This document shows, in pieces, positions 3,401-48,260 of a DNA stretch of 64,000 nt. The stretch is from Terriglobia bacterium (GTDB lineage: Bacteria > Acidobacteriota > Terriglobia > Terriglobales > Acidobacteriaceae). The stretch lies in assembly GCA_020072585.1 (NCBI GenBank), contig JAIQGL010000024.1, positions 1 through 64,000 of the forward strand, given 5' to 3'. The translations under genes and the position numbers were made by a program. The notes beneath the pieces were generated by a model. That model did no database searches and was not told the DNA's origin. It was given only the letters and a program-made list of their open reading frames with translations. Position 1 is the first letter of the stretch. Each line of letters begins with the position of its first letter.

Positions 3401-3921
3401 ACCTGCCGGAGACAAGGAACGTAATCCAGCGGTTTACATTTCCGCGGCAGCGTGAAGGGCGGAAACTTTCCATCGCCGACTTCTTCGTGCCGAAGGACGC
3501 GGGCAAATTTGATGTGATCGGGCTTTCAGTGGTCACAATCGGTGAGCGCGCTTCAGAGGAAACCAAGAAGCTCTTTGATGCCGGCGAGTTCACCAAGTAT
3601 CTCTACCTGCATGGGCTGAGCGTGGAAACGGCGGAAGCGCTGGCCGAGCTGTTCCACAAACAGGTCCGTGAAGAGCTGGGGATCGCCGGAGAAGATGCGC
3701 CACGCGTTGGAGACCTGTTCCACCAGAAGTACAGAGGTTCTCGCTATTCGTTTGGCTATCCTGCCTGCCCGAACCTGGAAGACCAGACAAAGCTTTTTGC
3801 TCTGCTTAAGCCGGAGGAGAACATCGGCGTGCGCCTGACCAGCGGGTTCCATATGGAGCCGGAACAGTCGACGTCGGCGATTATCGTGCACCATCCGCAG
3901 GCAAAGTATTTTGTGGTGTAA
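454..3921 (+). CDS. metH: Cobalamin-dependent methionine synthase
   Basis: 1155 aa. N-terminal homocysteine-binding domain (YDGAMGTEIQ, GGCCGTTP), pterin-binding domain (LILVDSTEADVIEEAL), B12-binding motif DVHDIGKN and C-terminal activation domain. Confidence 0.96.
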   Translation: MKPFLETVRERVVIYDGAMGTEIQERHPSMDDFWGKENCSEVLVLSRPDIIKDIHAAYFKAGADVVETNTFGGTRIVLGEFDLADKVHEINKRAAELACEVARDFSGNGKPRYVAGSMGPGTKLPSLGQISYDDMFQAYLEQSLGLIDGGVDILLIETCQDILQTKISVAAAFEAMRQRGKRIPVQAQVTLQESGTMLLGTEIGAAETALEPFDCEILGLNCATGPKEMNDAVRYLAHNAPQEISVLPNAGLPENVGGVAHYRLTPPVLAEYHKKFITEYGVRIVGGCCGTTPVHIKAVADLCANLEPAKRNVQITPAASSAYSTVPLDLDPKPLIVAEEMNTTTRVEHFKNMVREGKYDDILALAKKLVAEGSHMLDLCCAIVGEDEKGYMSTILERVATRVPAPILVDSTEADVIEEALKRIPGKAIINSINLEDGEKRTSKVLPMAKKYGAGVIALTIDEDGMALTAEKKVAVAKRIFKLATEKYGIRPTDLIFDALTLPISTGQDDYRLAGVETLNAIKGIKTELPEVKTILGVSNISFGLNTYARRVLNSVFMKEAVDYGLDMAIVNYAKIYPLYKIPQVEVDLARKLIYFDKSAGDPLQVYMQHFTGLDKQPQADVAPLESLSVEDKLKRCIINGEKALGDGAQKQTLEQILEEALLKYSPLEIINTVLLDGMKTVGELFGARKMQLPSVLDSAGVMKQAVAYLEPKMEKKEGTQKGTLVLATVKGDVHDIGKNLVDIILTNNGYKVVNLGIKQPSDSIIAAAKQHNAHAIGLSGLLVKSTLEMKYVIQDLQAQALDYPVICGGAALTRKYVEDDLRREYANSVFYADDAFTGLHLMDDLTSTNGAREKTLEEGRKVKEFAKTTAIAGGESSTSTERSPVVLPPPNIPVPPFYGVRVRKDFDLNEVFKYINHTALFKNQWQLKTASQADYLRLVEEKYVPVLAELQREVVAKGWFEPKVVYGYYGCYSEGNDVLLFDLPETRNVIQRFTFPRQREGRKLSIADFFVPKDAGKFDVIGLSVVTIGERASEETKKLFDAGEFTKYLYLHGLSVETAEALAELFHKQVREELGIAGEDAPRVGDLFHQKYRGSRYSFGYPACPNLEDQTKLFALLKPEENIGVRLTSGFHMEPEQSTSAIIVHHPQAKYFVV

Positions 3922-4142: not shown

Positions 4143-6065
4143 ATGAAAATTCTCTCCCGATTTAAGTGGCGCTACGCGATTGCCGCCGTTGTGCTCGTTG
4201 CTCTGGGCAGCGCTGGTTTGGTATTTTGGCGTGCACAGCGTGCCTTGCGGACTGCCACGGCGGAAGTGCATTCACAAGAGACGCTGCGCTTTTCGATCCG
4301 CAACCTTACTCCAGTAAGCAGTAGTTTCGAATGGATCAATGCTCCAGAGGCGTTTACAGGAGCGACCGTCTTTAAAGGCGAGTTTTACCTCTGTGGCGCA
4401 TCCGGCCTGTTTCGTTATGACAGCCAAGGAACGCAGCTCAAACACTATCGTCCGGGACAAGACCTGCCTTCTACGCCGCTGCTGCGGATGTCCACCGGCG
4501 TATTAAAGGACGCGAAAGAACCCGAACTGCTGATTGCCACGCTTTCAGAAGGCGTGTTGGCGTTCAATGGAACCGCCTTCCGCCAGCTATTTCCCGCAGA
4601 TGCTGATGCAAGGTCGATTACTTCACTGCTGCCGCTCAGCTCCGGGCAGTTGCTGATTGGAACGCGCAAACGCGGTGTGCTGGCCTATGACGGCCATTCA
4701 CTCCAGAGCTTCCATCCGGCATTAGCGGGCTTGCATGTTACCGAGCTTGCTGGCAGTGAAAGTGACCTCTGGGTTGGCACACAGGACCAGGGAGTTGTGC
4801 ACTTGCAGGCCGGACGCGCGGAGACTTTCGCGGAAGCGCAAGGCATGCCTGACGCGCAGGTCTTCTCCATCGCGCTGGTCAATGACAAAGTTTATGCCGG
4901 CACAGCGGTCGGCATTGCCGAGTTTGACGGCGGACGGTTTGTTCGCGTGCTGGCGCCTGGGGCCTTTGCCCGAACGCTCTATACGAACGGCATAACGCTG
5001 CTTTCCGGCGGAAGTGGAGATGGCATCCTGGAGATTGACCCCCAGCCAAAACGCATGCAGGGGCTTCTTCATCCGGCCACACGCTCCATGTCTGACGTGC
5101 AACAGATTTTTGCCGAGGGAAGCACGCTCTATGTGGTCACGCGGAAGGCACTCTACCAGAAAGAAGGCCAGCGTGGCGGCTGGCGGCGCGTTCTCACCTC
5201 TGCGGACGGGACACTGGCGGACCGCAATATCTCTGCGCTTGCCTTTGACGGCGCTGACCAGCTTTGGGTTGGATATTTTGACCGCGGCCTTGATCTTTTT
5301 GAGCCCAGTCTCCGTAACGCCATCCATATAGAAGACGACAATGTTTTCTGCGTCAATCGTATTTTGCCCAACGCGGCCGCGGGAACTGTTGCCGTAGCCA
5401 CTGCGAACGGTCTGGTCATGTTTGATCACTCTGGACAGAAGCGGCAGGTCCTTGGCCGTGCTGACGGGTTGCTTGCCGACCATGTGACGGACGCCGCTCT
5501 TTACGGCAGCGGCATGGTGCTGGCCACGCCCGCGGGGCTCACGTTTCTGGATTCAGCTGGCCCGCGCAGCCTTTACGCTTTTCACGGCCTGGTCAACAAT
5601 CATGTGTATTCCGTCGGAGCAGCGGGGAAGGAAGTGGTTGCCGGGACGCTCGGCGGAATCTCCGTGCTGGAAAATGAAAATGTGGCCGCCAATTACACTG
5701 TGGCTACTCGCGGACTCACACACAACTGGATCTCCGCAATCGCGCGCACCGGTGATGATTGGATCGTCGGCACCTATGGTGGAGGAATTGTGCGCCTGCT
5801 GGCCAACGGACGCTTTGAGCCCTTTGATGTCGCGACTGGAAAATTTGAAGTCTATCCTAACGCCATGCTCGCCACTGAGCAGCACGTGCTGGCGGGAACG
5901 CTGAACAAAGGTCTTTATATCTACAATCGCGGTACGAACCACTGGAGCGTAATCACGGATGGATTGCCATCCCGCACCGTGACCGCGCTTGCTGCAGGTA
6001 AGGGATTCATTTACGTAGGCACAGACAATGGTCTGGTGCGGATTCCGGAGCAAAATCTGCCATGA
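4143..6065 (+). CDS. Membrane-anchored beta-propeller (two-component-regulator-propeller-like repeats) protein
   Basis: ORF 4026..6065. Internal ATG at 4143 precedes an N-terminal TM helix (WRYAIAAVVLVALGSAGLVFW). Repeated motifs such as LWVGTQDQGVVHL, LWVGYFDRGLDLF, IVGTYGGGIVRL, IYVGTDNGLVRI. Confidence 0.75.
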   Translation: MKILSRFKWRYAIAAVVLVALGSAGLVFWRAQRALRTATAEVHSQETLRFSIRNLTPVSSSFEWINAPEAFTGATVFKGEFYLCGASGLFRYDSQGTQLKHYRPGQDLPSTPLLRMSTGVLKDAKEPELLIATLSEGVLAFNGTAFRQLFPADADARSITSLLPLSSGQLLIGTRKRGVLAYDGHSLQSFHPALAGLHVTELAGSESDLWVGTQDQGVVHLQAGRAETFAEAQGMPDAQVFSIALVNDKVYAGTAVGIAEFDGGRFVRVLAPGAFARTLYTNGITLLSGGSGDGILEIDPQPKRMQGLLHPATRSMSDVQQIFAEGSTLYVVTRKALYQKEGQRGGWRRVLTSADGTLADRNISALAFDGADQLWVGYFDRGLDLFEPSLRNAIHIEDDNVFCVNRILPNAAAGTVAVATANGLVMFDHSGQKRQVLGRADGLLADHVTDAALYGSGMVLATPAGLTFLDSAGPRSLYAFHGLVNNHVYSVGAAGKEVVAGTLGGISVLENENVAANYTVATRGLTHNWISAIARTGDDWIVGTYGGGIVRLLANGRFEPFDVATGKFEVYPNAMLATEQHVLAGTLNKGLYIYNRGTNHWSVITDGLPSRTVTALAAGKGFIYVGTDNGLVRIPEQNLP

Positions 6066-8437
6066 AACGGCTGCTTAAACTTCTGGTTGTTCTGTGCGCG
6101 CTGGCATCCATCACCTGGGGCGATGCCGGCGTCCTTATCCCGCGCGATAAAGCGCAGCCCGATCCGGCGGTCCTCTCGCTGGAGGAGATGGAGATCACCA
6201 TCCGCATTGATAACTCTGATGCGCGGATCTTTGTGAAGCAGATATTTGCCAATCACACCAGCGGCATTCAGGAAGGAAACTACGTCTTTGCGCTCAACAG
6301 CCACTCCGTGGTTTCTGATTTTGCTACATGGGATGGTCCGGTACGCATTCCCGCGGTGATTCTTGAACGCAAACGCGCGGAAGAAATTTATAACGAGCTC
6401 AAGCAGCAGTCGATTGATCCCGGTCTGCTACAAATGGGCGAGCGCACTGCCAGTGAAGCGCGCCACACCTCCACCTTCAGCGCCAGGATCGTACCCATTC
6501 CGGCATTCGGTACCAAGCGCCTTGAATTTGAATATCACGAAAGTATCCCAGTGGAAGGCTTCAAGTCATATTTCGGGATTGGATTGAAGCCAGAGGCGTA
6601 TCACTCCCAGACAGCACGCCATTTGATCATCCATTTTGAGTTGCGGTCAGAGCACCCGATTCATGATTTCAAGCTCGGCAGCGCGCTCTATCCTTTGAAA
6701 ATCAGCCAGCAGAATGCGCACCTGGTAACGGGCGAATTTGCGGGTGACAATGTGGCCCTCACGCAGGATTTCAGCGTCCAGTATGAACTGGACCAGGCCG
6801 CCGGCGATTCACTGCATGTGCTCACCTATCGCAATCCTGACTCCGGCCAGCCCGACCCAACAGAGATGTCGCCGCAGCGCAGCACGGATGAGCCGGGCTT
6901 CGCCGAGGTGGAAGCGTTGCTTGCAAACAAGAAAGCTGCTGCCGCCGCTGGACCGCAGACACGTCCACCCCACAACGTAATTGTGCTCTTTGACAACTCT
7001 CTTTCCATGCAGTGGGACAAACTGGAGCGCAGCTATGAAGCCATGCAGAAAGTTTTGCACTCACTCTCCGGCGATGACCATTTCAATCTGCTGATGTTCA
7101 ATAGCAAAGTGACTGCCTTCCAGCCAGCCATGAGCGGTGCTGCTCCGGTGAGTTTGCAGAAGGTGACGGATTTCGTCCGCAACAGCCGGTTGCGCGGCGG
7201 CACCGATCTACAGCGGGCCCTGGAGGCAGGACTGGCACAGTGCGCGCCGGGTTCGGCGAACAACTATCTCGTTCTCTTGACCGATGGCGCCGCCACTCGG
7301 GGCCCGATCCTAAGCGGCAAACTTTCCGCCTGGTACGCAGAAAAATGGAAGTCCCTTCCGGATGCCAGCCGGCCTAAGCTGTTCGTCTTTGCCGTGGGTG
7401 ACGATGCCAACCTGCCTCTGCTCCGCCTGCTCACTCGCAATGATGGTCTTTTGGAAAACGTTCTTTCCACGGAGCCGACTGAGTTCAAGCTGAATGCATT
7501 CATCGCCAAGATGAATATGAATCCCATCGGCCAGCTTGGGCTCACTGTGTCGCCGCAACCGGCGCTCGACCTTGTTTATCCTTTGCAGGACACATCGTTC
7601 GCCGGTTCCATGGCTTCATGGGTCGGGCAATACAAGACCGCGCAGAAGGGTGTGAGCTTTGATGTCCGCGGTGTCCGCGATGGTGACGCTTTCAGCATTC
7701 ATGGTTCTGCTGATCTGCCGCAGAAATCTCTTGAGCATGACCAGCTGCCTCGACTCTGGGCCAAGGCAAGGGTTGACGCGTTGCTGGAGAAAATTGAGCG
7801 CGAAGGCGAAGACAAAGCCAGCATCGATGAAATTATCCGCCTGGCGCGCAAATACAAATTCGTTACGCCTTACACTTCATTCCTGGCTGTGCCTCGCGCC
7901 CTGCTCCGCCCGCGCGTGATCCGTCCCGGTGATCCGGTGATCCGTGTGCGTACAGATCCATCCATCGTCTCCGTGGTCGCGCTCTTTCCTTTCGGGCTGA
8001 CCAAGCCTCTGCGCTATCTGGGCAAAGAAGATATCTGGCAGACGCGCTTCCTCGCGCCGGTAGACATGGAAGATGGCACGCACACGGTCCGTCTGGTGCT
8101 GCGTGACCGTAATGGCGCTACGTACCGCGAGGCCAAGACGTTTGTTATCGCCAGCAAGCCGCCAATGCTAAAGATCATTCTTGCTCGAAAGCAGTTCAGA
8201 AAGGGCGAGGCGATTCAATTGAGGGTTCATGCTTCGTCCAGCACGCGTACTTTGCTGGCACAACTTGAGGGCGCGGCGCCGGTGAGCCTGCGCTGGAACC
8301 CTGATGAGTCAGCGAGCACGGGTGAGATCACGGTGCCTGGAGAAATGTCCCCTGGCCGCTACCGCTTGACGGTAACGGCGGAAGATATTGCACACAACAT
8401 TGGCGCGCAGGAGGTGCAAATTGAAATTATCCCGTAA
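6062..8437 (+). CDS. VIT domain + von Willebrand factor A domain secreted protein
   Basis: 791 aa. Signal peptide; VIT-like region (FVKQIFANHTSGIQEGNYVFALNSHSVVSDFATW); MIDAS-like DNSLSMQ with LLTDGAA. ATGA overlap with the upstream gene. Confidence 0.85.
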   Translation: MKRLLKLLVVLCALASITWGDAGVLIPRDKAQPDPAVLSLEEMEITIRIDNSDARIFVKQIFANHTSGIQEGNYVFALNSHSVVSDFATWDGPVRIPAVILERKRAEEIYNELKQQSIDPGLLQMGERTASEARHTSTFSARIVPIPAFGTKRLEFEYHESIPVEGFKSYFGIGLKPEAYHSQTARHLIIHFELRSEHPIHDFKLGSALYPLKISQQNAHLVTGEFAGDNVALTQDFSVQYELDQAAGDSLHVLTYRNPDSGQPDPTEMSPQRSTDEPGFAEVEALLANKKAAAAAGPQTRPPHNVIVLFDNSLSMQWDKLERSYEAMQKVLHSLSGDDHFNLLMFNSKVTAFQPAMSGAAPVSLQKVTDFVRNSRLRGGTDLQRALEAGLAQCAPGSANNYLVLLTDGAATRGPILSGKLSAWYAEKWKSLPDASRPKLFVFAVGDDANLPLLRLLTRNDGLLENVLSTEPTEFKLNAFIAKMNMNPIGQLGLTVSPQPALDLVYPLQDTSFAGSMASWVGQYKTAQKGVSFDVRGVRDGDAFSIHGSADLPQKSLEHDQLPRLWAKARVDALLEKIEREGEDKASIDEIIRLARKYKFVTPYTSFLAVPRALLRPRVIRPGDPVIRVRTDPSIVSVVALFPFGLTKPLRYLGKEDIWQTRFLAPVDMEDGTHTVRLVLRDRNGATYREAKTFVIASKPPMLKIILARKQFRKGEAIQLRVHASSSTRTLLAQLEGAAPVSLRWNPDESASTGEITVPGEMSPGRYRLTVTAEDIAHNIGAQEVQIEIIP

Positions 8438-11400
8438 AACCCTCGCGAAAGCCTCCTTACTGGTGGTCTGCGTTGCTGCCGGCCTGGTAGCAGCGCGCGC
8501 CGCGATGCCGGAATGGATACAGAACATCGAAGTGCGCTCTCTGGTTGAGGTCGCGATCTTTCGCACCGTTCCTTTGCCCACAGGACCGATTACTATCCGC
8601 CGTCCTCCGGCAGAGTCAGTGCCGGCGCTCGGCGAGCTGGTGAAGCAACATCCGCAGCAGGCCGACCTCTATTCACTGAAAGCTCTGGAAGAAGAACAGA
8701 AACTTGATTTTGCCGCTGCAGAAGCTGACTGGAAGCTCTACCTGCAAAATGCCTCTGACAAAGCTGCGGCGCAGACCGATCTGGCTGACTTCTATCACCG
8801 CCGACATCAGCCGAAAGAAGAAGTGAACGCGCTCTCCGCGGCTGGGCGAATGCCTTCGCCGCCGTCAGAAAGGTTCACCGCCGTCGCTGATCAGCGCGCA
8901 TGGCAGGCGTTTGAGAGGTCATTCCAGGTGATTCAGGCACAGGCGCTTGGGAAGAATGCGTCCATCGATCAGTACAACGCGTGGATTGCGCGCTATCCGC
9001 AGGAGCCTGGACTGTATGGCCGGTATTTCGAATTTCTGCTGAATGAAAAGGATTTCAAGGCTTCAGCCGACCTGATCGCAAAATATCACGCCAGATTTCC
9101 CAACGATGAAATATTTCCCACCAAGGCACGCGCCCTCCTGGCCTATAGGCAGGGATCGGTGGAGGAAGGGCTGGCGGTTTATGAAAAAAACTTCCAACCG
9201 CTGTGGCCTCCTGAGCTGATCACGAACTATTTTGATCTGCTGCGTGAGACGCGCAGCCTGCGCAAATTTCTTGACCAGGCGCATGCGGCTTTGGCCCGCA
9301 ATCCTGACGATCTGAATGCCGCAGTCCGCGTCTTCTATTATCACCAGCAGCAGGGCAATCTTCAGGCGGCGCAGCAGGCGATCACGGAATACCGTCTGCA
9401 AAAAGATTCACGCAATGCCGCGTGGACAACACAGGAGCTTTACACTTTTGCACGGTTGCTGGATGCAGTGCATCTTTATCCAGAGGCCGCGCGCTATTAC
9501 TTTGCGCTTTATAACAGCCCGGGCGCGGATGCGCCGGAAAAAGCACTGGCTGGTCTGGCAAACATTCTGCTGATTGCTCCCGAACAACAGGTCCGCTTCG
9601 GCGCCGGTGATATCTCCATGTACAAAGATATTGCCACCATGGATTCAGGCCCGGGCTATCTGAACGGCATCCTGTCATTGATTCTGAACACCAGCTCGCC
9701 CGCGTATCACTATTCTGAAGAAGAGCAGCGAGCGCTGCCGTATTTTCACCGTTCGCGCACCGCTGAACTTGTGGCGCTCTTTGATGAGCGTTTCCCCAGC
9801 GCTGCTTCGCGCGCTGAATTGCATGCCCGCTTGATTGAAGCTTATGCCGGCTATGGGGAAGATGCGGCGGTACTTAGCGCCGGCAGCGATTTCCTGGCCG
9901 CGTTTCCCTCCGCGCCGCAACGCAACCAGGTTGCCCTGCTCATGGCGGATAGTTATGCCCGCGGCGGCAATACCAAAGCAGAGTTCGCCTTGTATGACAC
10001 TCTGCTACAGGAGCTGGCGCGCAAAGCGGACGGCGTGCCTTTGGGAGAAAGTCAGGAGCCGGTCGGTCGCGTCTATCAGCTCGTTCAGCCGGTAACCCAG
10101 CGCAGCGGCGAGAATGATAGCGATGAGGGTGAGCAGCAATCTCAATCCGCAAGCAGAGGGGCAGACCGCGCGGCATTTTCTGTACAGAAGACGGCCACAC
10201 AATCTCAAGTGAGCGGCCCACGCTCGGCTGAATATCAGCACGTGCTCGATCGCTACATCTCAAGACTGGTATCGCTACGGCAGGTCCCCGCTGCGCTGAC
10301 TGTGTGGCGGCAGGAGCTGGATCGCAATCCAAACGATCCGGGCCTTTATGAGAAGTTTGCCGCTTTTCTAGAAAGCAATCAGCTGGGCACGGAAGAAGAA
10401 GCCGTGTTCAAGCGTGCAATCCAGCAATTTCAGGGTACAAGCTGGTATCACAAACTGGCGCGCTGGTATCTGAGAAAAAAACGCGACCAGGACCTGGAGA
10501 ACCTCTCGCAACAGGTGCTGAAGATTTTTTCGGGCAGCGATCTTGAGGCGTATCTTCGCGGTGTCTCTGGAATGCCCCAGCAGCTTGATTTGCGCTTCAA
10601 TCAGCTTGCGCATGAACGCTTCCCGCATAACCTGACGTTTGTGCACAACCTGCTGGCGCTTTATCAAAGCAAGCGCTTCTATAACCAGGTGGCGTGGGAG
10701 GGCCTGCTGCGGCAACATTGGTTTGCCGACGAAAATCTGCGCAATCGTTTCTTTGAGTACCTGTCCCGTAACGCCAAGCTTGAGGCGGAATTGCAGAGCC
10801 TGCGCTCTACGGTGGCTGCTAATGCTGATTGGGCGGTGGAGGCCAAGTCAAACCCGGCGAGCGCGCGTTTCATCGGCGAAGCGGAGCTGTGGCGGTCGCA
10901 CTTTGAAGCTGGTGCGCCCGTTATCTGCGCCGTGGCCCGGCAGTATCCGGCGGATGCCGAGTTGGGCGAGCGCGCTTCTTCCGTGTATCGGTCGCTCGCC
11001 TATTTCGATCCAAAAAATACCGGACCGGCCGTGGAGATTGAATCCAACTTATTGCGGTCAGCGCCCGGTGACCGGCAGAGGCTGGCACGCATCGGGGACA
11101 TCTATTCAGACCGTGAGCAGTTTGCCAAAGCCGCGCCGTATTGGAATAAAATGCCTGAAACGGAGCCTGGCCGGGCACAGAGTTACGAAGATGCGGCCAC
11201 GGTTTTCTGGGATTATTACTTTTTTGAGGATGCACTCCGCCTGCTTAACCAGGGGCGAAGCAATCTGCACGACGATACACTCTATAGCTACCAGGTGGGC
11301 GCGATTTATGAAAATAAGCGCGACTTCACGCGCGCGGTGGCGGAGTATGTGAAGGGCGCTTTGGCTGCAGCCCCAAATCCGCAATCCCGGGAGCGCCTGC

Positions 11401-14400
11401 TGCATCTGGCCACGCGGAAGACGGCACGCGATGCAGTGGACGCTGCGAGCGACCGCGCGGTGGCGGCCAGCAAGTACTCTCTGGGTGCAATCCAGTTGCG
11501 CCTGGAGGTGCTGGAAGCCCAGGGGCGGAAACAAGAGATGGCGACGTTGCTCCTTGCCGCTCTGGATAACAGCAACTCAGTGGAGACACTGGAGAGCATT
11601 GAGAACACAGCCAGGGAAAAATCTCTGGAAGCGGTCCGTCAGCATGCTTTGGAAAGGCAGGCTGCGGTCAGCACTGATCCCATTCGCCGGCTCGAACTGC
11701 GCTATGCGCTGGTGAATTTTTACGAACAGAAAAAAGACCTTGCCGCCGCGCAGCAAAATGTCGAAGCGCTGTACAAGGAAAATCCCAGGGTCATGGGCGT
11801 AGTCCGCTCGACCGTGGACTTCTATTGGCGCAACAAGCTGCAGCAGCGCGCGATTGATGTTCTGGCGCAGGCGGCAAAAGATTCCTACCCGGCGCTGAAG
11901 GCGCAGTTTACTTTTGAAGAGGCCCGCAAAATGACGGAAACGGGCCAATACGAACCTGCGCGCAAACTTCTGGCCGGGCTGCTGGCCGGCTCTCCCTATA
12001 ACGCTGAATATCTTGCCGCCACCGCGGAAACCTACGCGCGTGCCGGTGACCAGGCTGGTCTGCGCGATTTTTATCAGGAGAAAATCAAGCTCTTCCAGAA
12101 AGCAAGCATGGCGTCTGACGAGCGCAAGGAGCGGATCGCAGGACTACGTCGCGGGCTCATTCCCGCGCTTACTTCGCTGAAGGATTACGCCGGCGGCGTG
12201 GACCAGTACATCGAGATCATTAATGCCTATCCAGAAGACGCTGGCCTGACCGGTGAAGCGGCATTCTATGCGCAACGTTACCAGCGCAAAGAACAACTGC
12301 TCAACTTTTACGCAAAGACGGTTGCCGCTTCGCCCAAGGACTCTCGCTGGGCCGTGGTGCTGGCCAGAGCGCAAGCCAGCCTGGAAGATTTTGACGCTGC
12401 TGTTCGAACCTACGGGCAGGCGATCAAGGTCCGTCCTGACCGGACCGACCTGCTGACGGCGCGCGCCGCCATGGAAGAGCGACTCATGCGTTTCGACGAG
12501 GCTGCTGCCGACTACACGTCACTGTATGAACTTGCTTATCACGATGCCCGGTGGATGGAAAAAGTCGCGGAGATCCGTGCCCGGCAAAACAAGCCGGAAC
12601 AATCCATCCAGGCGCTCAAGACCGCATTAATCGATGGCCGTCCGGAAGCCCCGGGAAAATATTTCACGGCGGCGGAGCGGTTTGAAGGTTGGGGCATGCT
12701 GGCGCCGGCCCGCGAATACGCGGAAAAAGGCGTGGCTGTTGCCGAACAGGACCTGCTGGCAAACTCTGACAATCATGCCGGAGCGCAGACCTACACGCGC
12801 ATCATGACTCGTCTGCGACAGCAGGAAGCGGCCTATCAGAAGTTGCAGGCTGCCATGGCTGGAGCCAAACAACTTCCTTCTCTGGCGCAGCAAGTGGCGA
12901 AGAACGGGCTTGAAGCCGTTACCAACACCGAACTGAAGAAGAACCTTCTTGCCCGCCGTACCTCTACTGCGCGCGATGGACTGATGGCATGCATGCGCGA
13001 GATGGGCACGGCCGTGAACAAGTATTTCACGCCGGAAGAGCGCGCTGCGTTCGCAAAGTCACTGGAAACCAAAAGCGCCGCCATGACGCGCACTGAAGCC
13101 AATGACTACATTCTCCCTGCGGCGGAAAAGGCCGTAATACCAGAGCTACAGGTCAAGCTCATCACTGCGGCGCTGACAGCTCGGCCCATGGACGGCGCTT
13201 CTTCATCTGCGCTGGAATTTCTGCAGATTGACCGTTTGAAGCTGATGGAATTAGGTAAGCAATTGGAGCAGATCGCCGGCGCGGGCAGATCGACCCATAC
13301 AATCAGCTATCTGACACGAGCGCTGGAGATTTACGCAAAGGCCGGCAGTCCGGATGATGAATTGCGAGTCCTGGAAGCGATGAAGCAATATCAGGCGCTG
13401 GCGGGACGGCACCAGGAGCGCTACTTTGAGCTGCTGCTGGCCAGAAGCCCGCAACAACTCGTCCAGTTGGCGGCTCAACCGGATGGCCGGGGCGATGCCG
13501 CTGTGAATTTCCTGCTTGCCCACGCTGACGCCAAGCTGGTTTTGCCCGCAGTGGATGTGCGTAGCGCATCAGAGCCGGCGGTCTGGCGTTCGGCGTACAT
13601 CGCTCTTGCGGGGCTGTATTTCGCGGACGGGAGCGTGCCCGTACAGAACGCTTTCGCCACAGCTCTGGCGGATGGAACCATCGGCCAGCGCCTCTCCCGG
13701 ACGGGGGATCGCAAACAAGGTCTGGCCGGCGATGTGTGGTTCTACTATGGTTCCAGATACGGCGAATATCTGGGCACGGTGAAGAAAAGTGATCCTGAAG
13801 ATTTCCTTCCGGCGGAAATTGAGCATATGCCCACGCGCGCCGCAGCTTACTTCACCACCGCTCTCTACTATGAAGATTCCGGTGATCTGCCCCGTGCCGT
13901 TGCTGACTACCAGCATGTGCTCGACCTGAGTCCCGAACGCATTGACGTGCATAACCGGCTGGCAGGAATCTACTGGAAGCAAAAACATCAGGACCTTGCA
14001 CTCAACGAATGGAAGAGAGCGCTGGAGCTTCTAAAGGTCCAAACCACAACCGGCAAGACACAGGAGACGTTCTGGGGAGATTTTGCTGCCACCCTAACCA
14101 ATTTGGGAAGCCGCAAGCTGGTGCCGCAATTCCAGGCAGACGTCAATGAAGTCCTGCACAACTATGTGAAGAGAAACGGAACATATCGCGTCGATCCATT
14201 GCTGCGTAGCGTGTTGCCACGACTGGAAGGCCCAGCCGCAGCCACAACGCTTGTCCTTGAGCTTTCAACCGACGCGCCCGAGAAGATTTCTTTCCTACGT
14301 CAATTCGTTGCAGAGAACTCCACTCTCAAGCTGGACCAGGAGCCCATTTATCGCCGCCTGCTCGAGTTGCAACAGGACAAAGCCGATAAATCTGAAGGCG

Positions 14401-15782
14401 TGGCACACGAATATGCCCAGCAGGAGTTCGAGCAACTAGAGCAGGACTGGTTGCAGTATCTCCTGGACAACAAACAATATGAGCGCGTGCGCAGCGGGCT
14501 GAGCGCTCTGCCTGCGCCGATGTGGGAGCGTAAGCCGCAACTGTTTCAAATCCAGCTTAAGACGGCCGCGCAAACAGGCGGATTGGACGCCATCATAGCT
14601 GGCTACCGTGCCGATCCTGAGCATGCTCCGTCAGCGGAGGTGTTGCGAAAAACGGCGACGGACCTCCAACAATCCGGGGACAAGGCATCCGCGCGCAAGA
14701 TCCTGGAATTCGTTTTCACGCGTGAAATTGATAACCACAATCTGACCGTCCCCAACATGCTTGGTCTGGCCGATATCCGGCTGCAATCAGGTGATGTTGA
14801 GGGTGCGATGGCGCTCTTGCGGCGCATGACTCTGGTGGTTGGCAATCCGTTTGAAAATCATGATTCCGCAGCCACGCTGCTGATGCATGCCGGACATCCA
14901 ACAGAAGCCGCCGCTTTTCTTGATGAACTAGTCAGGGCTATTCCCTGGAATGCCAATTATCGCCTGCGTTTCTCACAGGCCCGCATTGCAGCCAAACAAA
15001 CCTCAGATGCTGCAAGCAAAGACTTGATCGCCGTGGCCTCTACTCCGCATATTTCTTACGACACACGGCTCAGCGCCGCCAGGTCTCTTTCCGGCGCTGT
15101 ACCAGATCTGGGCAGTAAAGAGCTGGACCTTATGGTGGAAGGCCGCCTGGCGAGTGTGACTGATGCCAACCAGCCATACTTCTTTGCCGCCCGCTTGAAG
15201 GCCGCGGAGAACGCTCCGGCCGCTGCACGCGTCGCACTGCTGCGCGCTGCGCTGGAAGATAATCCTGCGGGCCAGGCCGCTCGAGTTCCATTGCTAAAAG
15301 CGGCTACAGAGACGGGAGATTACTACCTAGCTATCGCAGCCATGAAGGCAGATCTGCTGAACGGACTGGAACCAGCGGCTGAATCTGAACCAGTCCCGAA
15401 TGCTGAAGATGAAACAAGCCCGCCCGATGGGCAAGCAGACGGTTCTGTGCTGGCGTTAGCTACGCTACCTGTGAAAGAACGCGCTGAAATCAGCCGCGAC
15501 ATGGGAATGGCCTTTGCCAGAACCGGTTCACTGGTACAAGCGTTGCCGTATCTGCAAAAAGCGTATCGATTGGAAGCCGATCCCGCGGTAAAGACGCAGA
15601 TCAATCAAGAAGTTCAGCAGATACGGTTGCTGCAAAGAAGGCGTGCTGCGAATCGTCTCCGGCGTCCCGATGTCCACTCAGAGCTTGAGCAGGAGCACAC
15701 GGTTCGTCCGCGCTTGCCTGAACCGGCACTGTCCAGCCCGCCAGATCAGCAAAGTCCCGTACGGAAAGGAGCCGGACTATGA
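8421..15782 (+). CDS. Giant tetratricopeptide-repeat protein (about 2450 aa)
   Basis: ORF track 8388..15782. TTG at 8421 follows AGGAGGTG (SD) at about 8409-8416 and precedes KLSRKTLAKASLLVVCVAAGLVAA (signal/TM). Many helical TPR-like repeats. Confidence 0.85.
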   Translation: MKLSRKTLAKASLLVVCVAAGLVAARAAMPEWIQNIEVRSLVEVAIFRTVPLPTGPITIRRPPAESVPALGELVKQHPQQADLYSLKALEEEQKLDFAAAEADWKLYLQNASDKAAAQTDLADFYHRRHQPKEEVNALSAAGRMPSPPSERFTAVADQRAWQAFERSFQVIQAQALGKNASIDQYNAWIARYPQEPGLYGRYFEFLLNEKDFKASADLIAKYHARFPNDEIFPTKARALLAYRQGSVEEGLAVYEKNFQPLWPPELITNYFDLLRETRSLRKFLDQAHAALARNPDDLNAAVRVFYYHQQQGNLQAAQQAITEYRLQKDSRNAAWTTQELYTFARLLDAVHLYPEAARYYFALYNSPGADAPEKALAGLANILLIAPEQQVRFGAGDISMYKDIATMDSGPGYLNGILSLILNTSSPAYHYSEEEQRALPYFHRSRTAELVALFDERFPSAASRAELHARLIEAYAGYGEDAAVLSAGSDFLAAFPSAPQRNQVALLMADSYARGGNTKAEFALYDTLLQELARKADGVPLGESQEPVGRVYQLVQPVTQRSGENDSDEGEQQSQSASRGADRAAFSVQKTATQSQVSGPRSAEYQHVLDRYISRLVSLRQVPAALTVWRQELDRNPNDPGLYEKFAAFLESNQLGTEEEAVFKRAIQQFQGTSWYHKLARWYLRKKRDQDLENLSQQVLKIFSGSDLEAYLRGVSGMPQQLDLRFNQLAHERFPHNLTFVHNLLALYQSKRFYNQVAWEGLLRQHWFADENLRNRFFEYLSRNAKLEAELQSLRSTVAANADWAVEAKSNPASARFIGEAELWRSHFEAGAPVICAVARQYPADAELGERASSVYRSLAYFDPKNTGPAVEIESNLLRSAPGDRQRLARIGDIYSDREQFAKAAPYWNKMPETEPGRAQSYEDAATVFWDYYFFEDALRLLNQGRSNLHDDTLYSYQVGAIYENKRDFTRAVAEYVKGALAAAPNPQSRERLLHLATRKTARDAVDAASDRAVAASKYSLGAIQLRLEVLEAQGRKQEMATLLLAALDNSNSVETLESIENTAREKSLEAVRQHALERQAAVSTDPIRRLELRYALVNFYEQKKDLAAAQQNVEALYKENPRVMGVVRSTVDFYWRNKLQQRAIDVLAQAAKDSYPALKAQFTFEEARKMTETGQYEPARKLLAGLLAGSPYNAEYLAATAETYARAGDQAGLRDFYQEKIKLFQKASMASDERKERIAGLRRGLIPALTSLKDYAGGVDQYIEIINAYPEDAGLTGEAAFYAQRYQRKEQLLNFYAKTVAASPKDSRWAVVLARAQASLEDFDAAVRTYGQAIKVRPDRTDLLTARAAMEERLMRFDEAAADYTSLYELAYHDARWMEKVAEIRARQNKPEQSIQALKTALIDGRPEAPGKYFTAAERFEGWGMLAPAREYAEKGVAVAEQDLLANSDNHAGAQTYTRIMTRLRQQEAAYQKLQAAMAGAKQLPSLAQQVAKNGLEAVTNTELKKNLLARRTSTARDGLMACMREMGTAVNKYFTPEERAAFAKSLETKSAAMTRTEANDYILPAAEKAVIPELQVKLITAALTARPMDGASSSALEFLQIDRLKLMELGKQLEQIAGAGRSTHTISYLTRALEIYAKAGSPDDELRVLEAMKQYQALAGRHQERYFELLLARSPQQLVQLAAQPDGRGDAAVNFLLAHADAKLVLPAVDVRSASEPAVWRSAYIALAGLYFADGSVPVQNAFATALADGTIGQRLSRTGDRKQGLAGDVWFYYGSRYGEYLGTVKKSDPEDFLPAEIEHMPTRAAAYFTTALYYEDSGDLPRAVADYQHVLDLSPERIDVHNRLAGIYWKQKHQDLALNEWKRALELLKVQTTTGKTQETFWGDFAATLTNLGSRKLVPQFQADVNEVLHNYVKRNGTYRVDPLLRSVLPRLEGPAAATTLVLELSTDAPEKISFLRQFVAENSTLKLDQEPIYRRLLELQQDKADKSEGVAHEYAQQEFEQLEQDWLQYLLDNKQYERVRSGLSALPAPMWERKPQLFQIQLKTAAQTGGLDAIIAGYRADPEHAPSAEVLRKTATDLQQSGDKASARKILEFVFTREIDNHNLTVPNMLGLADIRLQSGDVEGAMALLRRMTLVVGNPFENHDSAATLLMHAGHPTEAAAFLDELVRAIPWNANYRLRFSQARIAAKQTSDAASKDLIAVASTPHISYDTRLSAARSLSGAVPDLGSKELDLMVEGRLASVTDANQPYFFAARLKAAENAPAAARVALLRAALEDNPAGQAARVPLLKAATETGDYYLAIAAMKADLLNGLEPAAESEPVPNAEDETSPPDGQADGSVLALATLPVKERAEISRDMGMAFARTGSLVQALPYLQKAYRLEADPAVKTQINQEVQQIRLLQRRRAANRLRRPDVHSELEQEHTVRPRLPEPALSSPPDQQSPVRKGAGL

Positions 15783-17485
15783 GATCACGCAAAAAATTGT
15801 CTGTGCTTGGTTTGCTGGTGTTGTTCGTTACCGGCATCATTGGCTGGAGTCTTTTCCGTCCGCAGGCCGGACCGAAGCACACGCTCGATCAGATCATGCC
15901 GGAAGGTTCATTGCTCTACATTGAAGCCAAAGATTTTTCCGGGTTGCTGAAGGATTGGAACAGCTCTCCGGAGCGCGCTGAATGGCTTAAGAGCGACGAC
16001 TACCGGGTGTTTTCCAACTCCAGGCTGTTTCTGCGGCTGGGCCGCGCTTCAGACCAATTCGCCGCTGTGGCCGGGCTTCCGCCTGACATGAAATTTTTAG
16101 TCGATGCCGCTGGCAAGGAAAGCGCCGTGGCTGTGTATGATATTGGCAATCTTGAATTCCTGTACATTACCCGGCTTTCTTCAGGAGACTTCCTTCAGTC
16201 CGCGTTGTGGCAGTCACGCAATAAATTTCAGCCGCGCATGGCGGGCGGCAAACAGTTTTTCACGCGCAAAGACGAAGAATCCGGCCGCGTGGTTGCGTTT
16301 GCCATTGCGGACGACTATCTGATTCTGGGCACGCGTGAAGATCTGGTGGCAGGCTCACTGGAGTTGATGTCCGGCAGCAAAGGACACATGCTGAGCCAGG
16401 AGGGCTGGTATACGCAGGCCCGCACCGCCGCATCCGCCGTTGTGGGAGATCTGCGCATGGTGATGAACATGGAAAAGATCGCGGTAGCGCCGCACTTCCG
16501 CACTTACTGGATACAGAACAACATCACTGAAATGCAGAGCTATAGCAGCGCGATCTCTGATCTTTATCGTGAAGGCCAGGTGTATCGCGAAGAACGCGTA
16601 GTCTTGCCGAAGAAGCAGGGTGACGAAACTGCGCTGGCGCAATCAGCACAGGCGGCAACGAACTTACTGAGCGCTGTCCCCAAAGATTACGGTTTTTATC
16701 AGGTTGGGCCCACTGACGTAAAGGGCAGCCTGGCCGCTCTGGAGCAAAAGATCCTGGCGCCGCGGTTTGGCGCCGCTCGCGCAGAAAAGCTGGCTCCTCA
16801 GGTTCAGCTGGCCGGCGGCCAAACAGGCTCCGGTACTGATCTGGAAACCCGCATTGACGTGGAGCCGGCATCGCGTGTGACCAGGCTGAATGCCGCGGAA
16901 GTTTTGCAGATGCAATTGGAAAAGTGCGGTCCCCAGGCCCTTTTGGTGGTGCAGGCCAGCCGCAAAAATGCTGACGGCGTACTGATGAATATCCCTGCTG
17001 TTGTGGCGGTGGCTGCCGTGACAGAGTGGGATATTCCATCCATGCAGAGAGCGGTGCAGGAGATGATTGCGCCCGCGTTGACCACTGCGCGCCTGGGAGT
17101 GCAATGGCGAGAAGTGAAAGAAGCAGGCGGATATTATGAACTTGATGGGCTCTCACCGGTGCAGATGGCGGTGCGTGGCAAGGTGCTCTACCTGGCCAAC
17201 GATGCCGGGCTATTGAGTTCTATTTTGCAGACCAAAAATCAGTTGCTTTCGCAACCCGCAAGTTATGCTGCCGGCTTTAGCCATTCGCGCGAACGCCAGA
17301 ATTTCTATAAGTTCTCCAGCCTGGTTGATCAACCATCGGGAGGCCAGGGTTCGGAACCGCAATTCTTTTCGCAGAATATGGCTGGTTTCAGCCGCGCTTT
17401 TGCCAGGCTGGATTCAGAAGAGATCATTACACGCCAGACAAAGGATAAAATCCAACAGACGGTAACGTATCGTTGGATGCAATAA
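15779..17485 (+). CDS. Membrane-anchored conserved hypothetical protein (DUF3352- or DUF2138/YfaA-like; not resolved)
   Basis: 568 aa, N-terminal TM helix. Starts in an ATGA overlap with the stop of the TPR gene. Confidence 0.7.
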   Translation: MRSRKKLSVLGLLVLFVTGIIGWSLFRPQAGPKHTLDQIMPEGSLLYIEAKDFSGLLKDWNSSPERAEWLKSDDYRVFSNSRLFLRLGRASDQFAAVAGLPPDMKFLVDAAGKESAVAVYDIGNLEFLYITRLSSGDFLQSALWQSRNKFQPRMAGGKQFFTRKDEESGRVVAFAIADDYLILGTREDLVAGSLELMSGSKGHMLSQEGWYTQARTAASAVVGDLRMVMNMEKIAVAPHFRTYWIQNNITEMQSYSSAISDLYREGQVYREERVVLPKKQGDETALAQSAQAATNLLSAVPKDYGFYQVGPTDVKGSLAALEQKILAPRFGAARAEKLAPQVQLAGGQTGSGTDLETRIDVEPASRVTRLNAAEVLQMQLEKCGPQALLVVQASRKNADGVLMNIPAVVAVAAVTEWDIPSMQRAVQEMIAPALTTARLGVQWREVKEAGGYYELDGLSPVQMAVRGKVLYLANDAGLLSSILQTKNQLLSQPASYAAGFSHSRERQNFYKFSSLVDQPSGGQGSEPQFFSQNMAGFSRAFARLDSEEIITRQTKDKIQQTVTYRWMQ

Positions 17486-18309
17486 CCAAACGGAATCTTT
17501 TAACGGCTGTGATCCTTGTGCTCTGTGTTGGGCAGCGTGCCGTGCCCGCCTGCGCTCTATCCCAGGACCTGCACACACAAGCGGCCGCAGCTTTATTGGC
17601 GCGTGATTTCAACGATCCCGATCTGTCTTACCTCTTGCTGGATGAGAATGGGCAGGTCGTCGCCCAGCGCTGGGAGAACCCGGAGCGTGATGTGCCGGTT
17701 GGCTCTCTGGTGAAACCCTTTCTCGCCGCGGCTTACGGGCAGACGCATCCGGCTTTTCCAGAGTTTCGATGTACAGGAAAGAAGACCTGCTGGCTGCCGC
17801 GTGGACACGGAATGCTCCAGATTCGTGACGCGATTGCTTTTTCCTGCAACTCATATTTTCATCAGCTCGTCGCCAGCGCTGGTCCGGGCTTTACGCGGGC
17901 CCTCAACGGTTATGATTTGCACGGGGCGGCGGCGCTTCCGGAAAGTAGCCATGCTTTAAGTTCAGCTGCGCCTCTGGCGTTGGCGCAGGCGTATCTTGAA
18001 CTCACGCGTCACCCACACGACGCGAAGATTGCTCCCGTGCTGCAAGGGCTGTCGCTGTCGGCGCAAAAAGGTACTGGAAAGGCCGCTGGCGCCGAGCTGC
18101 CGCACATTTTTGCCCTAGCCAAGACCGGCACAGCGCCATGCACGCACCTAAAGAAAGCTCCGGGTGATGGGTTTGCCATGGTGATGGCTCCTGCTGATCA
18201 TCCGCGCACCGTGGTGTTGGTGAGGCTACATGGCAAACCTGGATTCATGGCCGCCGGCGTTGCCGGACGCATCATTGCCGCGGTAGAAGGAAGTGGGGCC
18301 GGCAAATGA
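17473..18309 (+). CDS. Secreted serine transpeptidase/beta-lactamase-fold-like protein (DUF2300/YfaQ-like candidate)
   Basis: TTG start. Signal peptide; SxxK in VGSLVKPF, SxN in AFSCNSYF, KTG in ALAKTGTAP. Confidence 0.7.
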   Translation: MDAITKRNLLTAVILVLCVGQRAVPACALSQDLHTQAAAALLARDFNDPDLSYLLLDENGQVVAQRWENPERDVPVGSLVKPFLAAAYGQTHPAFPEFRCTGKKTCWLPRGHGMLQIRDAIAFSCNSYFHQLVASAGPGFTRALNGYDLHGAAALPESSHALSSAAPLALAQAYLELTRHPHDAKIAPVLQGLSLSAQKGTGKAAGAELPHIFALAKTGTAPCTHLKKAPGDGFAMVMAPADHPRTVVLVRLHGKPGFMAAGVAGRIIAAVEGSGAGK

Positions 18310-19337
18310 AAAAAATCTGGATGGCCACAGCATGGGTTGTACTTGGCGTATGCGTCGCGCAGGCGCAGCAAAAAGAGGTCCGCATAGGAGTTTTGGGACT
18401 GTTTCATTCAAAACAGATTGTGGTTGCGCCTGTCCTGGGCCAGCCGCTCCAATGCAGCGCTGGTGGCGGACCATGGCCGGTACGCAATCAGATGTTGGTA
18501 GAGCTGGCAGTACCAAAGCTGAGGATTGCCGGTACAGACAACTCTCTCGACGGGCCGATTACGTGCGACAACAGCCAAGGCGGCGCCGCAGAGATTGTGG
18601 TGAGTGTGCCGGGAAAGATTTCGCGTCGCTATAGAGGCAAGTTGGAGATCAGGACGGAATCCCGCGAGCTGCGCGTTGTGGTGATTATGGCGCTGGAGGT
18701 CGCGGTGGCATCCATTGTTGCCGCTGAAAGTCCTTCCCATGCGCCCACGGAAGCGCTGAAAGCGCAGGCGGTGGCAGCGCGGTCCTATTTGCTGGCAGGG
18801 AAGGGGAGGCACAGCGGCTATGATTTTTGCGACACCACGCACTGCCAGTTTTTACGCGAGGCTCCCGCGCCCGGAACGCCCGCATTTCAGGCAGCGGCGG
18901 CCACCCGCGATCTCGTGCTGCGGTACAAAGAGGAAGTGTTTGCCGCTATGTATAGCAGGAGCTGTGGTGGCCAAACGCACACACTCAATGAACTTGGTAT
19001 TTCCACACGCGGTTATCCGTATTTTGGTGTTACCTGCGATTACTGCCTGCGCCATCCTGAGAAGTGGGTTGTACAGATTCAATCCGCGGATGCAGCGGGG
19101 CTGGCGCCAACAGAGAACTCACGCCTCAATCTTGCCCGCAAGCTGGGATGGAAGAGTGTGCCGAGCAACTCCTATTCATCGCGCGCACAGAATGGGGCCG
19201 TCGTGCTGGAAGGCGTTGGTGTAGGCCATGGAATCGGACTATGCCAGCGCGGTGGCGCGGATATGGCACGTCATGGCGCATCATTTTTGCAGATTCTCGC
19301 GCACTACTATCCCAACACTGAAGTGAAGCAATATTAG
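18306..19337 (+). CDS. SpoIID/LytB domain protein
   Basis: 343 aa. Signal peptide; ALKAQAVAARSYLLAG, CDTTHCQFL, SRSCGGQT, GHGIGLCQRGG motifs. ATGA overlap with previous gene. Confidence 0.88.
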   Translation: MKKIWMATAWVVLGVCVAQAQQKEVRIGVLGLFHSKQIVVAPVLGQPLQCSAGGGPWPVRNQMLVELAVPKLRIAGTDNSLDGPITCDNSQGGAAEIVVSVPGKISRRYRGKLEIRTESRELRVVVIMALEVAVASIVAAESPSHAPTEALKAQAVAARSYLLAGKGRHSGYDFCDTTHCQFLREAPAPGTPAFQAAAATRDLVLRYKEEVFAAMYSRSCGGQTHTLNELGISTRGYPYFGVTCDYCLRHPEKWVVQIQSADAAGLAPTENSRLNLARKLGWKSVPSNSYSSRAQNGAVVLEGVGVGHGIGLCQRGGADMARHGASFLQILAHYYPNTEVKQY

Positions 19338-19828
19338 CTGCCAAGCTTCGTGTTCAGAGCTTTTAGATATCCGTCCAAGGTGGCCGTGTGACCAAAGATA
19401 AAGCGTGACACGAAGCGAAACAGAGGATTGTAGACTTCGCCATCTTCAGTAATGGTGAGGGTGCAGGAGTTGCCTACAGGCACGATTTCATAAGTCCAGG
19501 CGCCCCCAAAAGGCAAGCTGGTGTCTGTGATCCGCGTAACCAGGTGACGCGGCGGCGTGGCTTCAACGGCCTCATAAGGAATCGTCTGGCCGTGCTTGTC
19601 TGTTTCACGCCACATGCGGTGGCCTTCGTGCGGAGGCAGCTCTTGATAGTTGGTAATCTCGGGCCGCCATGTTGGCGGACCTGAAATCAAGGCCCAAACC
19701 GTTTCTGCTGGATGATGCAGGGACACCGTGCGTGAGACCCGGTGTTTCTGCGGCAGAAGCGCCCCAATTACAACGACTAGAATCAAAAGGCCCGCAATCG
19801 CCAGCGCGACGACCAATAACCATTTCAT
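19334..19828 (-). CDS. SRPBCC (polyketide cyclase/dehydrase-like) membrane-anchored protein
   Basis: 164 aa. N-terminal TM then RTVSLHHPAETVWALISGPPTWRPEI. Confidence 0.75.
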   Translation of the reverse strand: MKWLLVVALAIAGLLILVVVIGALLPQKHRVSRTVSLHHPAETVWALISGPPTWRPEITNYQELPPHEGHRMWRETDKHGQTIPYEAVEATPPRHLVTRITDTSLPFGGAWTYEIVPVGNSCTLTITEDGEVYNPLFRFVSRFIFGHTATLDGYLKALNTKLGS

Positions 19829-20310
19829 GCATAGCTCCTGTTCTTCTTTACTCGCGTTTTTTTGTTCTGCATGGCCTTGTGTGCTGCATGGGCCAGAAGC
19901 CCAAGCCCGTGGAGTGCCTGCTTGCGCTCGTTGGCGCCGAGTTGTTCCAGCAAAGCATTGACCAGGGCCGGATCCAGCACGGATTTTTCTGACTTGATGC
20001 GTACTCCCGAGGGCGTCAACAAAAGATGGACTTGGCGCGCATCCTGTGTTGCTCTTTTGCGGACTACGTACCTTTGTCTTACGAGCCGATTGATGGTGAT
20101 CGACATGGTGGAAGCGGTTACTCCCATATGCCCCGCCAGCGTCCGCAGGTTCGTGGGTTCAATTTCATCCAGGTGGTCCAGAACGCTGGCCTGGTGCGCG
20201 CTCAGGACGGTATTACTCCGTGGATCGCGTACATGCCGGGTATGGCAGGCAAAGTAAATCTGCGGATAAAACGTCATGAGCTGGCGAACAGAGTCCTGCA
20301 TTTTCGGCAT
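19825..20310 (-). CDS. MarR family transcriptional regulator
   Basis: ORF extends to 20340 but ATG at 20310 (MPKMQDSV) is more likely. wHTH VLSAHQASVLDHL...TLAGHMGVTASTMSITINRLVRQRYVVRKRATQDARQVHLLLT. Confidence 0.85.
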   Translation of the reverse strand: MPKMQDSVRQLMTFYPQIYFACHTRHVRDPRSNTVLSAHQASVLDHLDEIEPTNLRTLAGHMGVTASTMSITINRLVRQRYVVRKRATQDARQVHLLLTPSGVRIKSEKSVLDPALVNALLEQLGANERKQALHGLGLLAHAAHKAMQNKKTRVKKNRSYA

Positions 20311-20320
20311 AATTATGATG

Positions 20321-20353
20321 AATATAGTTTGATTTGTCAAATCAAATTATATT
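20321..20353. promoter_or_regulatory. Near-perfect 33-bp palindrome, candidate MarR operator
   Basis: AATATAGTTTGATTTG-T-CAAATCAAATTATATT: 16-nt arms with one mismatch, immediately upstream of the MarR ATG and facing doxX. Confidence 0.75.
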
Positions 20354-44578: not shown

Positions 44579-45072
44579 CAGGCCATTTGTGCGGATCAGA
44601 GAAACGATTCCATGGACCTTAAGACTGTCTGGCGGAGAGGGAGGGATTTGACGTACCCCAAATTTTGCAAGCTATTGATTTCCGACGACATAGCCTCAAA
44701 TACGTATGAATACAGGAGATTCTTTGCTTTCCGCCCTGTCTGCCCTTTCCGCCCTGTCTGCCCAGTAGAACCAATTTCCGCATTTTATGGACAGGATGGA
44801 CAGGAAGCTAGGAATCGGATCGGAATGAAATCCAATTGGGGAGTACTCTCAAAAGACCTCCTGACATTGTGCATAAGATCGCACTCCCTCGCTGAGTCGG
44901 TTCCCGGAGCCCGCCCCGCCGTGATTCCGGTTTCACGCACTTTCCATATCCCACGGGTAAAGAAGTTATGTAGCAAAGGCCTTAAAGAGTTGTTCAAGTT
45001 CTCTCATAGCCGTCACTCACGCTTGTTCCCTTCGCACCGCTTCTGTCGTTCTGGGCCTCGCGCATTTCTGGT

Positions 45073-45420
45073 CTAAATTCCCGATGCTGATTCCCAGGCT
45101 ACCTTGCGTCTCCAGCCCGCTCCAGACCGGAAATCCGCTTGAATCGCGTAGCACCAGGACCTCATCGCCTTTCTTTACTTCAGACGCAACAATGGCGGGA
45201 TGGCCCTCAAAGGTGATTCGCGAGCCCTTGACTTCAATCTTGTCATTGGGAGCAAGCTTTACATCTGATTGTCGATATACCAGCTTGGACCAGGATGGAC
45301 GGAGATTGTTTCTTTGTCGGTCTTCAGCGTGAGGTGAACACCGTATGACATCCCTTCACGGGGTGGAGAATGACCCAGAGGAATTGCTAAGAGCCTTGCA
45401 ACGGGCAATAAAACTTCCGA
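45073..45420 (-). pseudogene. Frameshifted remnant of a small secreted protein gene
   Basis: Minus strand: one frame reads GMSYGVHLTLKTDKETISVHPGPSWYIDNQM*, the next frame continues RQSDVKLAPNDKIEVKGSRITFEGHPAIVASEVKKGDEVLVLRDSSGFPVWSG. Frame switch near 45260. Confidence 0.6.
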
Positions 45421-45537
45421 GGTTCCGTGACGCATCCTAGGGTAGTGCCCGGAGAAAGCGAAATCAAAGAACGAAAGCAAATCCGGACAACTGATTCAGG
45501 CCGAATGCACTAAGATTGACAATGGCTTAGGGGGAGA

Positions 45538-45813
45538 ATGCAGATTTCGAGAGATGCAGATGGACTGAGGTTTATAGGGTATTGTGAGCGCGAAACTGGT
45601 TTTGTCGCTGGCGATATCCTATGTATCCGCTGTGGCCGTCGCATAAACCCTCACGTTGAAACCCGCGACGTCACGCTGACATGTTCAAGTTGCGGTTTTA
45701 AGGCCAAGGTTTTCTGGTCCGAATCCGAACTGCATGTTTATCTTGCGGAGCACTGGGATCATCTGAGAAAGGCATGCACTCATCCCACGGTAACGGCGCA
45801 GGGTTCATCATGA
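45538..45813 (+). CDS. Small zinc-ribbon-like hypothetical protein
   Basis: 91 aa. CIRCGRRINPHVETRDVTLTCSSCG (two CxxC pairs). Confidence 0.5.
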   Translation: MQISRDADGLRFIGYCERETGFVAGDILCIRCGRRINPHVETRDVTLTCSSCGFKAKVFWSESELHVYLAEHWDHLRKACTHPTVTAQGSS

Positions 45814-45817
45814 GTTT

Positions 45818-46225: not shown

Positions 46226-46392
46226 TGCGCTCGTTCTACCTCATTTATGAAAACTCTAACCTGAGATGCCGCATTTTTTGTGAATTTGATTAGAAAGTCT
46301 TATGACTTTGGTAACGGCGGGGAACGAGCCGTAAGAAATGTTACTTTTCCGGTACTCTTCTATACAACCAATCAGATTCTTAACGTATCTTA

Positions 46393-48120: not shown

Positions 48121-48253
48121 CCTTTTACTCGAAAGCTCCAGCGATTATCCGCTCAACCGGCGCGGGCAAATTAGAGGATTTAATGATGGCACCATATATT
48201 TCTCGGCGAGGTTTCGAATCTACTGTTATGAAAGCAGGCTCATCCGTCGACTG
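48121..48253. repeat. Dispersed direct repeat, copy A (133 bp)
   Basis: About 90% identical by eye to 50466..50600: 11 mismatches plus one 2-nt indel. Confidence 0.85.
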
Positions 48254-48260
48254 CTAAATA

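Follow-up and report, generated by a model that had tools for sequence, protein, structure and literature searches.

What do six overlapping genes for exported proteins, lying at positions 4143-19337 of the window (the whole 64,000-nt stretch of DNA analysed here), do for the cell? A preliminary description of the locus had read them as a translationally coupled operon and had inferred a role in envelope surveillance or surface assembly, by a system not described before. The overlaps are confirmed: along the six plus-strand ORFs, successive pairs share 4, 17, 4, 13, and 4 nt. As for novelty, literature searches on the operon and on DUF2138, DUF2300, and DUF2135, which covered few subscription journals, returned no description of such a system. 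The genes are as follows.

4143..6065, + strand: gene 1, Reg_prop β-propeller (two-component-regulator type) of 640 aa with an N-terminal membrane anchor (Pfam, ORF list)
6062..8437, + strand: gene 2, VIT and VWA domains with an Ig-like C-terminal region, relative of ITIH heavy chains, predicted to be secreted (Pfam, profile match)
8421..15782, + strand: gene 3, TPR scaffold of ~2450 aa, predicted to be secreted, TTG start (Pfam)
15779..17485, + strand: gene 4, 568 aa, N-terminal membrane helix, α/β fold, family without a Pfam model (predicted structure)
17473..18309, + strand: gene 5, class-B-PBP-like transpeptidase domain of 278 aa, predicted to be secreted, TTG start (PF00905, motifs)
18306..19337, + strand: gene 6, SpoIID/LytB-type protein of a glycan-cleaving family, predicted to be secreted (PF08486, TIGR02669)

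Six exported proteins and their domains

Each of the six products starts with a hydrophobic export segment, as the preliminary description had claimed in speaking of a signal peptide or transmembrane anchor on all of them. By eye, these segments look like uncleaved anchors in genes 1 and 4 and like cleavable signal peptides in genes 2, 3, 5, and 6. Alternative starts exist for gene 1 (TTG at 4026) and gene 3 (8388 and 8427). Upstream, the operon is separated by a gap of ~220 nt from a gene for a cobalamin-dependent methionine synthase (454-3921), and it is closed downstream by two minus-strand genes, a convergent polyketide-cyclase-type gene (19334-19828) followed by a MarR gene (19825-20340). 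No Rfam RNA family was found in the window, and none of the six proteins matched a PADLOC anti-phage defence model. Elsewhere in the window, the region 44600-52400 has few long ORFs and contains two pairs of similar short ORFs, 46393-46695/49565-49807 and 47110-47598/51508-51996, the second of which is receiver-domain-like by eye.

The propeller, VIT/VWA, TPR, PBP-like, and SpoIID labels given previously agree with Pfam and NCBIfam. The searches assign gene 1 to Reg_prop propellers, place VIT and VWA domains in gene 2, and class the repeats of gene 3 as TPRs. The profile of gene 2 matches human ITIH4 over residues 33-605 with an E value of 5.2e-52, and ITIH1 with an E value of 2.6e-48. Its metal ion-dependent adhesion site (MIDAS) is intact (D311-x-S313-x-S315, T381, and D408), and these residues are kept in 91 gene 2 sequences, with a single replacement of T381 by Ser. 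A segment around 598-632 is nearly invariant (KFVTPYTSFLA..R.LLRPR.I.PGDP), which has to be read knowing that part of it was used for finding the loci described below. Gene 2 therefore has the VIT domain, the VWA domain with a MIDAS, and the colinearity that together define an ITIH-like protein, sharing the VIT-VWA core of ITIH1/ITIH4 over 570 residues. However, it is bacterial and ends in Ig-like domains, and its likeness to ITIH is one of sequence; any protease inhibition or ester transfer by it would be conjectural.

These domains can be read as a machinery for surface or exopolymer assembly or for adhesion, in which a VIT/VWA adhesin, a PrsT-like TPR protein, and the propeller would export or hold a surface structure and the peptidoglycan enzymes would open the wall for it. 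This would fit the NCBIfam results, where, at scores far below cut-off, gene 2 comes near the marine sortase target family (TIGR03788) and gene 3 near PrsT. However, none of the six genes is recognised by Pfam or NCBIfam as a sortase, exosortase, outer-membrane barrel, transporter, or glycosyltransferase, and the upstream flanks of the operon are not conserved. We thus consider an assembly or adhesion system quite unlikely.

Conservation of the operon in Acidobacteriota

Within a sample of 247 Acidobacteriota genomes, gene 4 is present in 20 (~8%, the window genome included), which represent 16 genera, and a profile search gives the same 20. In 14 of the 19 other genomes, the VIT/VWA, TPR, and 568-aa genes occur in the same order. 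These 14 genomes belong to 10 families, and the propeller gene is also found in 13 of them, gene 5 in six, and gene 6 in seven. Some genomes have only a stand-alone relative of gene 4 and none of the other operon genes (L030:13313-15226, L031:13240-15153, L034:12913-14856, L036, and L038). At another locus (L027:5865-15141), a TPR gene adjoins the 568-aa gene, and the propeller and VIT/VWA genes are absent upstream.

A scan of named-genome contigs with the single gene 4 protein gave no match, and an alignment of gene 2 served instead. It retrieved 265 relatives, the best 80 of which define the loci analysed here (L075-L154), nearly all of them labelled Acidobacteriota. They include Bryobacterales F-183, which has genes 1-6 (L150), and Bryocella elongata DSM 22489, which has genes 1-4 (L151). 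One locus (L145) is labelled Betaproteobacteria and carries the operon with a gene 2 identity of 64%; it probably comes from a mislabelled or contaminated assembly. Since the loci were chosen by gene 2 motifs, all neighbour counts are conditional on gene 2. Wherever the contig had room for it, the neighbouring gene was found in 72/74 cases for the propeller, 76/76 for the TPR gene, 64/64 for the 568-aa gene, 49/59 for the PBP-like gene, and 11/17 for the SpoIID gene (best 80 of 265). In the same best 80 of 265 loci, the median junctions between the first five genes are -4, -17, -4, and -13 nt. The neighbourhood survey that the preliminary description had proposed thus finds the order of the six genes conserved on about 80 named contigs.

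Two further observations concern the integrity of the locus. The pairwise divergence of the operon genes is correlated across loci (r = 0.83-0.96), and no gene family recurs upstream of the propeller in more than 6 of 58 loci. The latter finding makes gene 1 the 5' border and the operon a self-contained module. It could be argued that the six genes are mere neighbours that do not act jointly, since some loci lack genes 5 and 6 and stand-alone relatives of gene 4 exist. However, about 80 loci show this order and these overlaps although what lies upstream of them is unrelated, and their genes diverge in step. This rules out a chance grouping, and we reject the explanation as extremely improbable. 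The operon is real and is widely conserved across Acidobacteriota, in at least 10 families. Some loci have genes 1-4 but not genes 5 and 6, so the operon has no strict need of the peptidoglycan pair.

The peptidoglycan pair and its relation to YfaQ

Gene 5 matches the PF00905 transpeptidase model (E = 3.4e-6), and its profile matches the class B PBP MrdA across all three motifs (E = 1.7e-14). These motifs are SxxK (S78 and K81), SxN (S124-C-N126), and KTG (217-219). S78, K81, S124, and N126 are found in 55/55 relatives; among sequences with a residue at the position, K217 and T218 are found in 53/53 and G219 in 50/53. By sequence, gene 5 is therefore a class-B-PBP-like domain with the complete set of transpeptidase motifs. 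It differs from class B PBPs such as MrdA/PBP2 in being only 278 aa long and exported, with no pedestal and no glycosyltransferase domain, and in its conserved Cys100/Cys106.

Gene 6 matches SpoIID with an E value of 1e-17, well above the curated cut-offs of PF08486 (64.8 vs. 23 bits) and TIGR02669 (142.7 vs. 83.3 bits), and also matches the SpoIID structures 4rwr, 5i1t, and 5txu. Its catalytic-type Glu, E141, is found in all 21 sequences with a residue there, and the window protein has a zinc-like His/Cys cluster (H-x5-C-x3-HC). These features identify gene 6 as a member of the SpoIID/LytB family. In contrast to the SpoIID lytic transglycosylases with which it shares this Glu and cluster, its N-terminal domain is divergent, it is paired with a transpeptidase-like protein, and it occurs in a phylum that is not known to form spores.

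The preliminary description had likened the PBP-like ORF to DUF2300/YfaQ. The YfaQ half of this proposal holds: gene 5 aligns to residues 35-196 of Escherichia coli YfaQ (hhalign E = 9.2e-8, probability 94%), whereas the Pfam DUF2300 model does not match it. What had not been seen before is that gene 6 also aligns with YfaQ, over residues 185-397 (hhalign E = 1.7e-9, probability 96%). Control comparisons of atoB, SGNH, and MBOAT with the gene 5 and gene 6 families gave p of 0.17 or more. In these alignments, S60-x-x-K63, S108-C-G, and K195-T of YfaQ fall on S78-x-x-K81, S124-C-N, and K217-T of gene 5, and E334 falls on E141 of gene 6. HMMs find YfaQ as well, with E values of 0.002-0.005 for gene 5 and 3e-9 to 9e-11 for gene 6, and E. 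coli YfaQ has a SpoIID match at 312-374. The PF00905 HMM does not match YfaQ, and BLASTP comparisons of gene 4 or 5 with YfaA or YfaQ are too weak for use alone. Since the alignments are colinear, YfaQ looks like gene 5 and gene 6 relatives fused in one chain, in the same order.

Two enzymes with intact active-site motifs could also, instead of guarding the wall, remodel peptidoglycan constitutively for cell division, septum splitting, or the shaping of the cell. SpoIID would then act on denuded strands, the PBP-like protein would cross-link, and the TPR and VWA proteins would position both. SpoIID proteins are known as glycan-strand lytic enzymes of sporulating bacteria, which adds to the appeal of such a role. 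However, the patchy occurrence of the locus in 20/247 genomes argues against a housekeeping task, as does the existence of loci in which both enzymes are missing. Remodelling therefore strikes us as a rather unlikely explanation.

Partial kinship with Mag/Yfa and a proposed function

The YfaQ relation calls for a comparison with the Mag/Yfa operons, Pseudomonas aeruginosa magABCDEF and E. coli yfaATSQP, which encode a type II bacterial α-2-macroglobulin. Work on the Mag operon has treated it as a protease trap, and we take P. aeruginosa MagF to be the counterpart of YfaQ. Like the present locus, these are short, coupled operons of exported proteins, and both include a protein of ~560-590 aa with an N-terminal membrane helix (gene 4 here, YfaA and MagB there) as well as relatives of genes 5 and 6, fused in the same order in YfaQ. 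In contrast, our locus has VIT/VWA, giant TPR, and propeller proteins in place of an α-2-macroglobulin, DUF1175 (YfaT), and a stand-alone DUF2135 (YfaP), and its genes 5 and 6 are separate with complete motifs, while YfaQ has SCG for SxN and KTW for KTG. The absence of α-2-macroglobulin, already stated in the preliminary description, extends from the operon to the genome, where bMG10 has no match; DUF1175 and DUF2135 are absent from the six genes, and DUF2135 from the whole genome as well. The DUF2300 and DUF2138 families expected previously found no match above the Pfam cut-off in any of the 247 Acidobacteriota genomes, only noise. As α-2-macroglobulin is the defining component of Mag systems, the operon cannot be filed as Mag/Yfa. 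Judging by its proteins' similarities, it shares the peptidoglycan arm of Mag/Yfa without being a Mag/Yfa operon. A whole yfa-type operon (DUF2138, DUF1175, α-2-macroglobulin, DUF2300, and DUF2135) lies on the Citrobacter portucalensis plasmid NZ_CP134684.1 (L155), typed as mobilizable.

Gene 4 is less readily tied to Mag/Yfa. It belongs to no Pfam family, with only single weak matches among 56 members. Its AlphaFold model is a confident α/β fold (pLDDT 84.8, pTM 0.81), for which Foldseek returned Treponema TP0453 as the sole PDB match (E = 3e-4, TM 0.47 on target) and nothing viral; a profile search of the PDB gave no match. YfaA had the best score among the families compared with gene 4 by hhalign, aligning N-terminus to N-terminus over 187 columns, with a p of 0.046 that is not significant. 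The predicted structure of YfaA, made from six near-identical sequences, has a pLDDT of 33.8, too low for use.

DUF2135 provides a second link between the operon and Mag/Yfa, since in Acidobacteriota this YfaP domain is joined to VIT. All five complete DUF2135 proteins found in Acidobacteriota (L164:1198-4185, L165:1684-5205, L166:2394-5894, L167:2601-5588, and L168:4049-7324) have VIT at the start and DUF2135 at the end, and three of the five also have TPRs (by Pfam, before DUF2135) and a carboxypeptidase-regulatory-like domain. This fusion, the missing α-2-macroglobulin, and the ITIH4/ITIH1 match of gene 2 would also suit a scenario in which gene 2 is itself an ITIH4-like protease trap or inhibitor that directly replaces α-2-macroglobulin, the other proteins stabilising it as the Mag partners do MagD. 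However, no bait-like disordered segment was identified in gene 2, and VIT/VWA proteins, most of them uncharacterised, are widespread among bacteria. We regard such a trap as quite unlikely. Type I bacterial A2M and PBP1C both presumably belong to protein families other than those of the present locus, and presumably have no SpoIID, TPR, or propeller partner. They nevertheless offer a parallel in which a serum-protease-inhibitor-like protein is paired with a penicillin-binding protein, as described for yfhM-pbpC (PMC5764988).

Our preferred reading, to which we give a probability of roughly 45%, is that the six products would form a periplasmic complex, tethered to the inner membrane, that guards and repairs the cell wall on the Mag/Yfa plan, with ITIH-like and TPR proteins replacing α-2-macroglobulin. 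In P. aeruginosa, MagD is held at the inner membrane by MagB and has MagA, MagB, and MagF as binding partners (PMC5764988). By analogy, genes 1 and 4 would be membrane anchors, gene 4 probably in a MagB-like role, and gene 3 would be the scaffold for assembly. Gene 2 would bind a partner or target via its metal-dependent VWA site, and together with the TPR scaffold it may sense or hold envelope damage or a target. Gene 6 would cleave glycan strands and gene 5 would form or trim peptide cross-links, the two together replacing damaged wall. A guard-and-repair complex is supported by the conserved order and overlaps, the co-variation, the unrelated upstream flanks, the match of genes 5 and 6 to YfaQ, their active-site residues, and the DUF2135-VIT link. 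It is also supported by the phenotype of MagD, which protects P. aeruginosa against the peptidoglycan-targeting T6SS effectors VgrG3 and, to a limited extent, Tae1 (PMC12663445; 2025). Against it, we counted the lack of bMG10 in the genome, the nonsignificant comparison of gene 4 with YfaA, and the loci that lack genes 5 and 6.

These findings have implications for both systems. Judged by how YfaQ aligns with genes 5 and 6, the DUF2300 protein of Mag/Yfa operons would combine a transpeptidase-like and a SpoIID domain in one chain, which offers a direct and testable reason for the MagD-linked phenotype with peptidoglycan effectors. For the uncharacterised family of gene 4, the operon supplies a genomic setting that is conserved in a phylum prominent in soil. 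More tentatively, and with considerable doubt on our part, the locus might encode a second kind of bacterial envelope-immunity complex, one that has no α-2-macroglobulin and relies instead on an ITIH-like VIT/VWA protein working with a dedicated transpeptidase-SpoIID pair. If so, the Mag operon and this complex would together mark out a wider group of periplasmic systems that respond to damage, all coupling a core that resembles immune proteins to one and the same arm for peptidoglycan repair.
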